Source of the DNA: Patescibacteria group bacterium
Lineage (GTDB): Bacteria > Patescibacteriota > Patescibacteriia > Patescibacteriales > Patescibacteriaceae
Length of the DNA: 50,505 nucleotides
Direction: 5' to 3'
NCBI GenBank assembly: GCA_030583705.1
Contig: CP129471.1
Location: 1 to 50,505 of the forward strand
In this document: positions 2,077-47,820 of the stretch, in pieces
Layout: each line of letters opens with the position of its first letter
Position numbering within the stretch: the first letter of the stretch is position 1
Notes under the pieces: model-generated
Seen by the model: the letters and a program-made list of their open reading frames with translations, nothing else
Told to the model about the DNA's origin: nothing
The model's database searches: none
Translations under genes and position numbers: made by a program

Positions 2077-2131
2077 GTAGTTTTATATAATTATATAACC
2101 ATATAACCATATAATAATGGTTTAATAAATA

Positions 2132-2160
2132 AAAAATAGCCCACACAGGGCTATTTTTTT
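2132..2160 (+). terminator. Intrinsic terminator after yidC
   Basis: An 11-bp stem (AAAAATAGCCC / GGGCTATTTTT) with a 5-nt loop ACACA runs straight into a T-run. It lies 56 bp past the yidC stop and should end the rpmH-yidC transcript. Confidence 0.85.
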
Positions 2161-2198
2161 GTTTGTTTAAATTAAAATAGACTTATAAAATAACTACT

Positions 2199-2487
2199 GA
2201 AAATAATAAGAGCCCCAACCGGGGCCTCATTATAATTATTATTAGACCGCGAGTTGAGGCTCATACCCTAGTGGGTATAAGTCTCCTGGTGATTTAGGGA
2301 CATGCCTTACAACCAACATTTGAACCATTCTCTATTTTATGAGTTTGGCCATTTTTTTATTTTTATTTTAAAAGCGTATCACCTCCGCTTTATTTTTAAT
2401 GGCAGTTATAAGGAGAGGAATCATAACAATGATCTTAAATGTCATTGCGTAAAACCTCTGTCTTTGTAATGTGCGATCTAAACTTAT
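2199..2487 (-). ncRNA. Candidate small RNA or small-ORF transcript between yidC and oriC
   Basis: The minus strand has a complete-looking transcription unit with no long gene: a strong promoter (2494-2522), about 280 nt of transcript, and a terminator hairpin (GAGGCCCC/GGGGCTC at 2210-2228, then TTATTATTTT). The transcript holds several hairpins. In one (2371-2391) a 6-bp stem AAAGCG/CGCTTT presents GAGGTGATA in its loop; GGAGGTGAT is the full complement of a bacterial anti-Shine-Dalgarno, yet no start codon lies at usable distance. A second hairpin is ATACCC/GGGTAT near 2265-2281. A 28-codon ORF (2242-2328, starting MVQMLVV) is the only notable reading frame near the 3' end. Whether the product is an RNA or a micropeptide cannot be decided here. 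Confidence 0.5.
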
Positions 2488-2493
2488 GCTTTA

Positions 2494-2522
2494 AGTATAG
2501 CATAGTTTAGAAAACAGGTCAA
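2494..2522 (-). promoter_or_regulatory. Sigma-70-type promoter for the 2199-2487 transcript
   Basis: On the minus strand TTGACC (2517-2522), a 17-bp spacer, then TATACT (2494-2499). It fires away from the oriC candidate towards yidC. Confidence 0.75.
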
Positions 2523-2706
2523 TGGTTTTATTGTATAATATAAAATAGGCAAAAAAGTCAATAAAAACCCTATTTTTATAACATAAAAATTTTTATTATA
2601 TAAAGTTTTCAACAGTTTAAGTCCAGGTTGTTTTAGACTTAAATCAATAAGTTATCCACCTAATCCACTAGTTATCCACAGGTATGGTAAATAAAGATGG
2701 GGATAA
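2521..2706. other. Probable replication origin (oriC) with DnaA boxes and AT-rich unwinding region
   Basis: An extremely A/T-rich stretch (about 2521-2615) precedes a cluster of DnaA boxes: TTATCCACC (2652-2660), a perfect TTATCCACA (2672-2680), and an inverted near-match TGGGGATAA (2698-2706). The first two are in the same orientation, 20 bp apart. The position in the dnaA-rpmH-rnpA-yidD-yidC neighbourhood fits an origin. AT-rich DNA flanking a box array is the standard oriC layout. No experimental evidence is available here, and the dnaA-rpmH gap is the competing or additional site. Confidence 0.65.
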
Positions 2707-2708
2707 AC

Positions 2709-2741
2709 AAAAAGAAGCTTAGATGATCTAAACTTCTTTTT
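2709..2741. terminator. Long symmetric hairpin, probable bidirectional terminator beside oriC
   Basis: A 16-bp inverted repeat (arms starting AAAAAGAAG and ending CTTCTTTTT, one C/A mismatch) has almost no loop and A/T tracts at both ends. It lies between the DnaA boxes and tRNA-Cys and could terminate transcription from the tRNA side before it enters the origin. Confidence 0.6.
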
Positions 2742-2805
2742 GGGATAGTGGTGTTGATTTGGTATTATCTGAGGGTATCAAGGGTTGGCTATTAGCCCTA
2801 TTTTG

Positions 2806-2877
2806 AGGTCACGGTGGGATTCGAACCCACGATGGCGGTTTTGCAAACCGCTGCCTTAGCCACTTGGCTACGCGACC
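2806..2877 (-). tRNA. tRNA-Cys (anticodon GCA)
   Basis: On the minus strand this folds as a 72-nt cloverleaf. The acceptor GGTCGCG pairs with CGTGACC, the anticodon loop is TTGCAAA (GCA), and the T-arm is GTGGGTTCGAATCCCAC. The discriminator is U, as expected for tRNA-Cys. The 3' CCA is not encoded (TCA follows), so it must be added. Confidence 0.95.
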
Positions 2878-2928
2878 TGGAATTATTTAGAAACCTTTTA
2901 CTTAATGACTATAACAAATTTTTTATAT

Positions 2929-2962
2929 AAAAACAACAAGAGAGATGACCCTTGTTGTTTTT
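2929..2962 (-). terminator. Intrinsic terminator after the 3D-domain gene
   Basis: A perfect 12-bp stem AAAAACAACAAG/CTTGTTGTTTTT with a 10-nt loop, followed on the minus strand by an A/T tail. It lies about 65 bp past the stop of the 3026-3694 gene. Confidence 0.75.
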
Positions 2963-3025
2963 ATAGATTGGAATTAATTTCAATCTAATCTTCCTTTCAA
3001 TTTAAATATATTTTGGCTATGTTAT

Positions 3026-45281: not shown

Positions 45282-46475
45282 ATGAAATACTTTTTTATTC
45301 TAGGTAACCACCAAGTCCTTTCTTTGGCTGAAATAAAGGCGGTTTTTCCTAAAGCCTCTTTATCTTTTGTTGATGAGGTTTGTTTTTTGGAAACCTCCGA
45401 AACCCCTGGAGCTTCCAGCTCTTTTAATGAAAAAGCCCTAATAAAGAACCTTGGAGGTACCATTAAAATTGGTAGGGTTTTATCTCAAATTAAAAACATG
45501 GAAGAAGGTAGAAAGCTAGCCTTAAAAGAACTTCTTTTGGTACCAAAAGAAGGAAAATTTAACTTTGGCATTTCAGTGTATGGTTCGGCTAAGGTTAAAG
45601 CTTTAGCCTTGGGTCTTGAATTAAAAAAAGACTTAAAGGCTCATTATAAGAGTCTACGTTTAGTAACTAGTAGAGACAAGGCTTTGTCTAGTGTAGTAGT
45701 TGAACAAAACAAACTTGTTTCTTCTGGTAAAGAAATAGTCTTTTTTGGTTTTAAAGATAAGTTATTTTTGGGTATTACCGAGGCGGTACAACCTTTTAAG
45801 GAGTTGTCTTTTAGAGATTATGGACGACCAGCTAGAGATGATCTTTCTGGTATGTTGCCACCAAAGTTAGCGCAAATTATGATTAATCTATCTCAGGCTA
45901 AGAAGAACGAAACCATTCTCGATCCTTTTTGCGGTTCAGGTACGATCTTAACCGAAGCTATGCTGATGGGTTATAAAAAGATTATTGGTTCGGATATTTC
46001 CGCTAAGGCGATTAAAGATAGTCGCGAGAACATAGAATGGATAGCTGAGAAATTTAATTTAGATACAGAAGTTTCTTTATCTGAGGCGGATGTTAAACAA
46101 TTAAGTAAAAAATTTAAACCAAACTCTATTTCTTCCATTATTACCGAAACCTATCTTGGACCACAGCGTGGTAAGGTGGATATTTTTAAAACTAGCCAAG
46201 AACTTACAAGTCTTTATAATAAAGCGCTTAAAGAAATAAAAGAAATTTTAAGTCCAGGAGGAAGCGTGGTTATGGTCTTACCTGTTTTTTTACAAAACGG
46301 ACAAAAAAGAATTTTGCCGATTACTATTCCAATGGGGTTAAAGATTAAAGAGAGTGATATAAGGGATTATAGGGATCATAAAGACTATAGGGAAGGAATT
46401 ACTCCAAGAGGGAGTTTTATCTACGGAAGATCAGGACAAAAGATTTGGCGAGAGATTATTATTTTGAAAAAATAA
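45282..46475 (+). CDS. TRM11-like/THUMP-type RNA methyltransferase
   Basis: The N-terminal ~180 residues look like a diverged THUMP-containing region (MKYFFILGNHQVLSLAEIKA; later FRDYGRPARDDLSGMLPPKL, the typical entry into the methyltransferase domain). The catalytic half has ILDPFCGSGTILTEAMLMGY, IIGSDISAKAIKDSRENIEW and ITETYLGPQRGK, in place of the usual D/N-PP-Y catalytic motif. The family methylates guanosine N2 in tRNA (Trm11/TrmG10). The T-E-T-Y-L-G version may alter the target. 397 residues. It is convergent with a candidate structured RNA. Confidence 0.82.
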   Translation: MKYFFILGNHQVLSLAEIKAVFPKASLSFVDEVCFLETSETPGASSSFNEKALIKNLGGTIKIGRVLSQIKNMEEGRKLALKELLLVPKEGKFNFGISVYGSAKVKALALGLELKKDLKAHYKSLRLVTSRDKALSSVVVEQNKLVSSGKEIVFFGFKDKLFLGITEAVQPFKELSFRDYGRPARDDLSGMLPPKLAQIMINLSQAKKNETILDPFCGSGTILTEAMLMGYKKIIGSDISAKAIKDSRENIEWIAEKFNLDTEVSLSEADVKQLSKKFKPNSISSIITETYLGPQRGKVDIFKTSQELTSLYNKALKEIKEILSPGGSVVMVLPVFLQNGQKRILPITIPMGLKIKESDIRDYRDHKDYREGITPRGSFIYGRSGQKIWREIIILKK

Positions 46476-46706
46476 AAAAGCCTTAGTGGTCTTCTCGTTT
46501 GTCTCTATCCTTTTCGGGATTAATTATCCGCACTGGATAATCGTACAAACCAAGAAGCCATAAGGCTCAAAATTTAAAAGGCTCCTCATTGCCTTTTACG
46601 TATTAGTTATTTTTTTAAAAAGAACAGATACAGATTACTTAAATGTTTTTGTTCATCTTAGGCATTTGCCAGAGGAGCCAGTTTGTTTCAAAGGAGAAAA
46701 AATGGC
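46466..46706 (-). ncRNA. Candidate structured RNA, about 240 nt, between ychF and 45282-46475
   Basis: The gene-free 46476-46761 region looks like a self-contained minus-strand unit: promoter at 46713-46741, then two folded domains, then a T-run. Domain 1 is closed by GGCTCCTC/GAGGAGCC (46672-46679 with 46580-46587) around an A/U-rich interior. Domain 2 is a long hairpin with arms AGCCTTA (46561-46567 with 46479-46485) and GTTTG/CAAAC (46546-46550 with 46497-46501), capped by ATTATCC-GCACT-GGATAAT (46523-46541). It ends CTTTTTTATTTTTT, a good terminator. No ORF of note on this strand. It does not match tmRNA, RNase P or SRP RNA; a 6S-like role is possible but unproven. Confidence 0.55.
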
Positions 46707-46712
46707 ACTTAT

Positions 46713-46741
46713 AATCTATCTTAAAATGACTTTTTTGTCAA
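46713..46741 (-). promoter_or_regulatory. Promoter of the candidate structured RNA
   Basis: A perfect TTGACA (46736-46741), 17-bp spacer, TAGATT (46713-46718) on the minus strand, just past the ychF stop. Confidence 0.65.
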
Positions 46742-46761
46742 GTTTGGATTCCTGGGTAATC

Positions 46762-47820
46762 CTAAGTATTTACCAAGAAATTACAAACATCTCCGTCTTG
46801 GATAATATAGTCTTTACCTTCCGTACGTATTAGACCTTGGGCTTTGGCGGTTGTTTCAGAGCCTGCTTTAACAAAGTCTTGCCAGTTAATAACTTCTGCT
46901 CTAATGAAGCCTTTAATAAAGTCGGTATGAATAACTCCGGCGGCTTCGGGGGCTAGAGAACCTTTTTTAACTGTCCAGGCTCTGGTTTCTTCGGGCCCGG
47001 TAGTTAGGAAGGTAATAAGTCCCAATAGGTCATAGCCGGCACGAATCAGGCGATCAAGGCCACTTTCTTTAAGACCTAGTTCTTGAATATATAAAGTTTG
47101 TTCTTCTTCTCCTAGTGAAGCTATTTCAGCTTCAAGTTTGGCATCAATACAAATAACCGGTACATTATCCCAGCTTTGTCCACTTTTTGTTTCATTGGTG
47201 TTAAGAATATATAAAAGAGGTTTAACGGTAATTAGGCCGAGTTGTTTGATAAAAAGCCTTTCTTCTTCGTTAAGGTTCATGTCTCTGGCGGATTGTTCTT
47301 TTTCTAAATGGTCTTTGGTTCTTTCTAGAAGTTCTTTAGCCCATAAAGCTTCTTTATTACCGCTTTTAGCTTCCCGGACAACTTTATCTAATCTTTTAGT
47401 TACAGTGCTAAGATCGGCTAGAATAAGTTCAAGATTAATGGTTTCTCTATCTGCTTCAGGATCTACCTTGTTATGAACATGGATAATATTATCGTCGTTA
47501 AATTCTCTAATTACTTGGCAAATGGCGTCGCATTCTCTGATGTGTGAAAGGAATTGGTTACCAAGACCCTCGCCTTGTGAGGCGCCTTTAACCAAGCCGG
47601 CAATATCCACAAACTCAATGGCCGTGGGGATAATCTTTTTAGGTTGGGAGATTTTAGCCAATTCGTTAAGACGATGATCCGGGACAGCTACCAATCCGAC
47701 ATTGGGTTCAATGGTACAAAAAGGATAATTGGCAGCTTCAGCTTGTTTTTTAGTTAAGGCGGTAAAGAGAGTGGATTTACCGACATTTGGTAAACCGACA
47801 ATACCAATGGATAAAGGCAT
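46762..47820 (-). CDS. ychF: Redox-regulated ATPase YchF (OLA1-like)
   Basis: A 352-residue Obg-family protein: Walker A GIVGLPNVGKSTLFTALTKK, FVDIAGLVKGASQGEGLGNQ, ECDAICQVIREF and ILNTNETKSGQ in place of the NKxD motif, which explains ATP rather than GTP use. The C-terminal TGS-like domain holds LLGLITFLTTGPEETRAW, IHTDFIKGFIRAEVINW and YIIQDGDVCNFLVNT. YchF/OLA1 binds ribosomes and responds to oxidative stress. Its downstream flank is the candidate structured RNA. Confidence 0.95.
   Translation of the reverse strand: MPLSIGIVGLPNVGKSTLFTALTKKQAEAANYPFCTIEPNVGLVAVPDHRLNELAKISQPKKIIPTAIEFVDIAGLVKGASQGEGLGNQFLSHIRECDAICQVIREFNDDNIIHVHNKVDPEADRETINLELILADLSTVTKRLDKVVREAKSGNKEALWAKELLERTKDHLEKEQSARDMNLNEEERLFIKQLGLITVKPLLYILNTNETKSGQSWDNVPVICIDAKLEAEIASLGEEEQTLYIQELGLKESGLDRLIRAGYDLLGLITFLTTGPEETRAWTVKKGSLAPEAAGVIHTDFIKGFIRAEVINWQDFVKAGSETTAKAQGLIRTEGKDYIIQDGDVCNFLVNT

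Follow-up and report, generated by a model that had tools for sequence, protein, structure and literature searches.

A candidate orphan small RNA gene in the gap between convergent ychF and methyltransferase genes of a Patescibacteria genome

What is encoded on the minus strand of the gap between the convergent ychF and methyltransferase genes of this Patescibacteria group bacterium? An initial annotation, made by eye from the letters, had proposed a stand-alone structured RNA gene there. We followed up that proposal in the window, namely bases 1-50505 of a one-contig genome of 869,590 bases (870 kb), in which the candidate is single-copy; its features are collected in Table 1. The closest named relative of this ychF in the genome collection is that of a Candidatus Falkowbacteria MAG, at 68% identity.

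Table 1. Features of the candidate RNA gene and its surroundings (window coordinates)
Feature	Position	Strand	Remarks
-35 element TTGACA	46736..46741	-	perfect consensus; about 20-21 nt past the ychF stop
-10 element TAGATT	46713..46718	-	spacer 17; 4/6 consensus bases
Predicted transcript, about 235 nt	46474..46708	-	extent predicted from the placement of the two signals
T6 run of the intrinsic terminator	46474..46479	-	directly 3' of the long hairpin; touches the methyltransferase stop codon
Domain 1	46580..46679	-	closing stem GGCTCCTC/GAGGAGCC; z -3.6
Domain 2	46480..46568	-	long imperfect rod, doubling as terminator stem; z -6.3
Candidate seed CATTTTTTCTCCTTT	46690..46704	-	exact complement of AAAGGAGAAAAAATG
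ychF GTPase gene	46762..47820	-	Pfam PF06071 and PF01926; upstream of the RNA, same strand
UPF0020/RlmKL-like methyltransferase gene	45282..46475	+	Pfam PF01170; convergent with the RNA
43-aa ORF	46702..46833	+	opposite the RNA 5' end and promoter; tail antisense to ychF

The signals named in the initial annotation are in place: the -35 element is perfect as claimed, the -10 element that it called plausible is present though less than ideal (10 of 12 consensus bases over both elements), the minus-strand terminator lies opposite the end of the plus-strand gene with its T-run touching the methyltransferase stop, and neither strand of the interval holds an ORF of 80 aa or more, in keeping with the statement that there is none. 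Judging from these letters, the transcript would start at G46708 or G46706 and end within the T-run. Promoter-like sites are common around the locus (16 observed vs. 10.2 expected in a 4 kb scan), so the promoter by itself proves little; the combination that marks a stand-alone intergenic sRNA gene at the sequence level is nonetheless complete, with a promoter of its own, an intrinsic terminator and no usable ORF between them.

The pairing of the two signals is less common by chance. In a background sample of 290.5 kb of the same genome (the window plus twelve 20-kb stretches) we counted units, defined as a promoter followed by a terminator 120-600 nt on, on the same strand and inside one intergenic gap of at least 150 bp. 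Such units occurred in 8 of the 69 gaps of that length, while ten shuffled runs yielded 1, 0, 0, 0, 0, 1, 0, 0, 1 and 1 units; promoter and terminator are thus paired within one gap more than by chance. Two of the eight unit-bearing gaps also contain a tRNA gene. Convergent gaps made up 6 of the 69, and two of these six carried a unit, one being the candidate locus.

Folding adds a second line of evidence. The minimum free energy of 46712-46466 (247 nt) was -64.5 kcal/mol, compared with -45.5 (sd 4.2) for shuffles, giving a z of -4.5. Folded by themselves, domain 1 (tested as 46681-46577) reached -24.8 and domain 2 (tested as 46570-46473) -36.9 kcal/mol, with 0 of 200 shuffles as low in either case. 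The claim of two stable domains thereby holds for domain 2 and for the solid 8-bp closing stem of domain 1, and less well for the domain 1 interior, because that is a mix of near-equal structures, several within 1 kcal/mol. When the 5' piece and domain 1 were folded together the z was only -2.4, and 2 of 200 shuffles were equally good.

The foremost rival explanation is that the gap holds only the ychF 3' UTR and its terminator, which might serve the opposite gene too, the promoter being a chance match of the kind so common in this AT-rich DNA. The minus strand does run from the ychF stop to the terminator with no other terminator-like site listed except a weak one in domain 2, and no structure here is stronger than that of the terminator domain. 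There is also a motif of similar placement, HRC-28-1, which according to its authors' account of that motif may be a structured 3' UTR (PMC8632094); like it, the candidate lies 3' of a gene, ends in a terminator and faces a neighbor gene of opposite direction, but HRC-28-1 is described there from 33 examples, whereas the candidate is a single case with its own promoter sequence. Against the 3' UTR, domain 1 beats its shuffles though a terminator has no need of it, shuffled DNA seldom pairs a promoter with a terminator in this way, and a 290-nt UTR is dispensable: ychF was found in 10 of the 13 family genomes, the convergent methyltransferase gene adjoins it in all ten, and in four of them (G001, G009, G010 and G011) the gap is just 2-5 bp. 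On balance we consider this explanation rather unlikely, although it deserves to be taken seriously.

In the other six genomes, namely G000 (that of the candidate RNA), G002, G003, G004, G005 and G008, the gap spans 221-1283 bp, and all six contain a promoter-like TTGACA or TTGACT site in ychF orientation; five of the sites fit TTGA[CT][AT]-N(15-18)-TANNNT, the -10 element of G003 being CATACT. As a control for length, TTGAC[AT] was found with the same pattern in 0 of 9 long gaps (>150 bp) elsewhere in the order, gaps that each contain an opposite-strand ORF of at least 87 aa; TTGAT variants occurred in three. One uncultured relative (L003) has the same promoter type in its gap, but with a 97-aa ORF. 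We aligned the gap transcripts, promoter left out, in 21 pairs. The best partner of the candidate RNA was the G003 transcript, at 0 of 200 shuffles as high and then 36 of 5000 on retest; common ancestry of this pair was rejected, because shuffles reach its score, as do 2 of 136 unrelated intergenic strands. Its pair with G005 (1 of 200 shuffles) aligns over an AT-rich 23-mer. With the gap transcripts unrelated in sequence and the RNA not convincingly found elsewhere, it is the position that recurs, and the RNA is an orphan. Among the other five family transcripts, a CTCC near the 5' end was seen in that of G002 only, which tells against the reading favored below. The G002 gap (1283 bp) holds several successive promoter-terminator units, one of them encoding a cysteine-rich protein of 96 aa that has CxxC pairs. 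Separately, in genus g41 (L132, L133, L137, L140, L144 and L150) the gap is occupied by a related opposite-strand gene for proteins of 177-188 aa, most copies ending in an RPPMIPL-like tail.

Searches for homologs of the RNA itself brought up nothing convincing. BLASTN at E<=0.001 in four genomes of the genus returned matches in the RNA's own genome only, and at E<=10 in the 13 family genomes it returned, beyond the own copy, short and mostly AT-rich scraps. Among 111 genomes of the order (E<=0.001), matches appeared in six: the own genome plus five with scraps of 20-40 bases, lying in an A/T-rich stretch or the terminator tail. We also built a covariance model (R1) from the single sequence entered twice with a guessed structure. 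At E<=0.1 it matched 4 of 109 genomes, the own one and three weakly (E 0.015-0.08); these three were judged chance, as they cover only 117-156 nt of its 209 positions. Against 23 loci R1 gave eight weak matches up to E 10. Taken together, BLASTN and R1 found no convincing homolog in 108-110 other genomes of the order, a phage search likewise found none, and one exact 25-mer of the RNA was absent from viral contigs. Conservation confined to the terminator hairpin, which the initial annotation regarded as telling against its proposal, was not what these searches returned: no conservation was detected anywhere, terminator included.

Such isolation would also befit functionless debris, or DNA inserted recently into a convergent gap that tolerates it, its promoter perhaps being active but to no effect. 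A single copy with no homolog found accords with this, as does a family gap that varies from 2 to 1283 bp with unrelated contents. A genome as compact as 870 kb, a folding stability in excess of shuffles, the recurrence of promoters at the same place in relatives and the exact 15-mer complementary to translation starts, described below, all argue the other way, and we hold debris to be unlikely.

That 15-mer lies near the 5' end of the RNA, whose first 20 nt are pyrimidine-rich and predicted to be largely unpaired. Within the candidate seed, a weak hairpin of 4 bp is predicted to present the core UCCUUU unpaired in its loop, so that by prediction the RNA displays an accessible anti-Shine-Dalgarno stretch. 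Its complement AAAGGAGAAAAAATG occurs at three places in the own genome and two in the sister genome G001, and is absent from the remaining 11 family genomes; the reversed 15-mer, as a control, has no occurrence in the family genomes. The copies outside the window, four in number, all lie at the starts of ORFs, whose lengths are 121, 203, 212 and at least 225 aa (the 203-aa one being NlpC/P60, and the 212-aa one including a masked stretch); what the RNA 5' end complements is therefore a real class of translation start. Together with the near match at a 160-aa ORF described next, this points to a seed directed against Shine-Dalgarno sequences, like that of the C-rich sRNAs of Gram-positive bacteria. 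Allowing up to three mismatches to the 19-mer revealed two further places in the own genome: 816458, at the start of a 160-aa ORF with no Pfam match and with 16 contiguous bases in common, and 515470, inside a long ORF, among its first codons.

The first 30 nt of the RNA were then tested for duplex formation with 248 start regions, of which three had been included on account of their match, while the rest came from roughly one third of the genome; one gene was entered twice. As controls, 100 shuffled seeds were used. The best duplex, with the 160-aa ORF, had -27.0 kcal/mol, followed by -19.8 and -19.1 for the two other matched genes. The best values of the shuffled seeds averaged -17.6 (sd 2.1) with none below -23.4, and 0 of 100 reached -27.0. 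Mean pairing was weaker at start regions (-6.2) than in mid-ORF DNA (-8.5), so the seed is not a general anti-start sequence and just a few sites stand out. The energy of this type of Shine-Dalgarno site alone is not exceptional: an equal or better upstream site was found for 34 of 1091 intergenic ATGs. Such starts are a minority class, since only 7 of 244 ORF starts in the own genome match equally well.

The same complementarity could be put to use in cis. Antisense RNAs of type I toxin-antitoxin systems are structured and lie opposite the ribosome-binding site of a short ORF, and the candidate is alike in this, covering the ribosome-binding site and start of the 43-aa ORF: the plus strand here carries AAAGGAGAAAAAATG, whose other four family copies all precede a gene, and the 43-aa peptide looks rather hydrophobic by eye. 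Unlike in those systems, this ORF overlaps ychF, about half of it being antisense to that gene, has no evident promoter (no good -35 lies a short way 5' of it on the plus strand) and shows no conservation independent of ychF. Among relatives at E<=1 it had four matches: three (G002, G010 and G008) lie at the ychF end and cover residues 15-43 only, so that ychF itself explains them, and the fourth (G004, E 0.05) is weak and lies elsewhere; a conserved small toxin ORF on the opposite strand was accordingly not seen in relatives at this threshold. Cis-antisense action strikes us as quite improbable.

As for known families, Rfam at gathering score reported only tRNA (eight matches) in the whole window, and to E 10 the 601 bases around the RNA gave 14 matches, all far under their cut-offs. 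No match to the tmRNA, RNase P or SRP RNA models was found in the region, nor did any described Rfam family of C-rich, Shine-Dalgarno-targeting sRNAs match, whether at gathering score or, in the search to E<=10, close to the cut-off. The statement that this is no common housekeeping RNA is borne out. A divergent 6S RNA binding RNA polymerase, a comparison that the initial annotation had recommended and that yielded nothing, would agree with a size near 200 nt and with the apparent vacancy in the family (RF00013 at E<=1 in 0 of 13 family genomes vs. 6 of 14 control genomes), but it was rejected as extremely improbable, as the region has no RF00013 match, folds as two separate predicted domains rather than as a single rod that is paired at its ends and opens into a central bubble, ends in a terminator and, unlike a housekeeping RNA, was not found in sister genomes.

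The proposal of a stand-alone structured RNA gene therefore remains the best reading, albeit without an Rfam match: we tentatively favor, with less than even confidence, a lineage-specific, trans-acting orphan sRNA gene, a well-formed candidate of an ordinary intergenic kind. A sigma-70-type promoter just past ychF would start the RNA of some 235 nt, which would end at an intrinsic terminator built from its 3' domain; read-through from ychF into it is also probable, and processing may occur. The two 3' domains would form a stabilizing scaffold, while a few mRNAs would be bound across their Shine-Dalgarno sequence and start codon through the loop UCCUUU and the U-rich bases beside it; first among these mRNAs is the predicted target at G000:C1 816458-816476, the 160-aa ORF. 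This pairing, we infer, would block ribosome entry and turn off translation of those few genes with no help from Hfq, for which no match was found in any of the 13 family genomes.

Firmicutes C-rich sRNAs act largely without Hfq, and among them RoxS, FsrA and CsfG of Bacillus subtilis bind mRNAs at or near the ribosome-binding site, as summarized in PMC8216469. Like these, on that account, the candidate would be a separate gene with a C-containing stretch directed against the ribosome-binding site, Hfq not being thought globally necessary. Unlike them, it has predicted targets and predicted expression only, no sequence relation to them was found, and its stretch U6CUCCUUU reaches across the start codon where theirs are runs of C. 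In the open-licence literature we found no report of base-pairing sRNAs from Patescibacteria. One study (PMC12045711) reportedly deals with guide RNAs of TIGR-Tas systems from phages and parasitic bacteria. A candidate RNA with a named seed and targets, in an 870 kb genome with no detected Hfq, would make post-transcriptional control of this kind in such reduced cells testable, and would bear on how new sRNA genes arise.

Two features go beyond the initial annotation and raise the interest of the locus, namely the 5' end exactly complementary to a ribosome-binding site and start, and the repeated presence, at this spot in relatives, of promoter units whose sequences are unrelated. A broader proposal would join them: in this Patescibacteria family, the 3' side of ychF may be a place where orphan sRNA genes arise again and again, and which here has produced an Hfq-free translational repressor whose 5' end is an antisense copy of a strong start-site sequence of the genus. 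Such a spot would repeatedly gain short promoter-terminator units of unrelated sequence. As a whole we think this proposal unlikely to hold.

Three other loci also drew attention. One of the eight units of the background sample, at L155:793-1219 on the plus strand (G000:C1 about 190793-191219), has a strongly folding leader some 240 nt long that carries AGGTGGAACCGCG and a GC-rich terminator; by its motif it looks like a T-box leader, and Rfam at gathering score did not report it. In the window, the long convergent gap at 2077-3025 (minus strand) has promoter-like sites and a hairpin-rich unit of 363 nt (-101.7 kcal/mol) followed by a terminator, with short ORFs only in the unit and a tRNA-Cys in the same gap. 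Finally, the 23S rRNA gene at L153:17048-19300 matches its Rfam model at 15-2044 of 2925 only, the stretch ending 700 bases on, and may contain an intron or be split.
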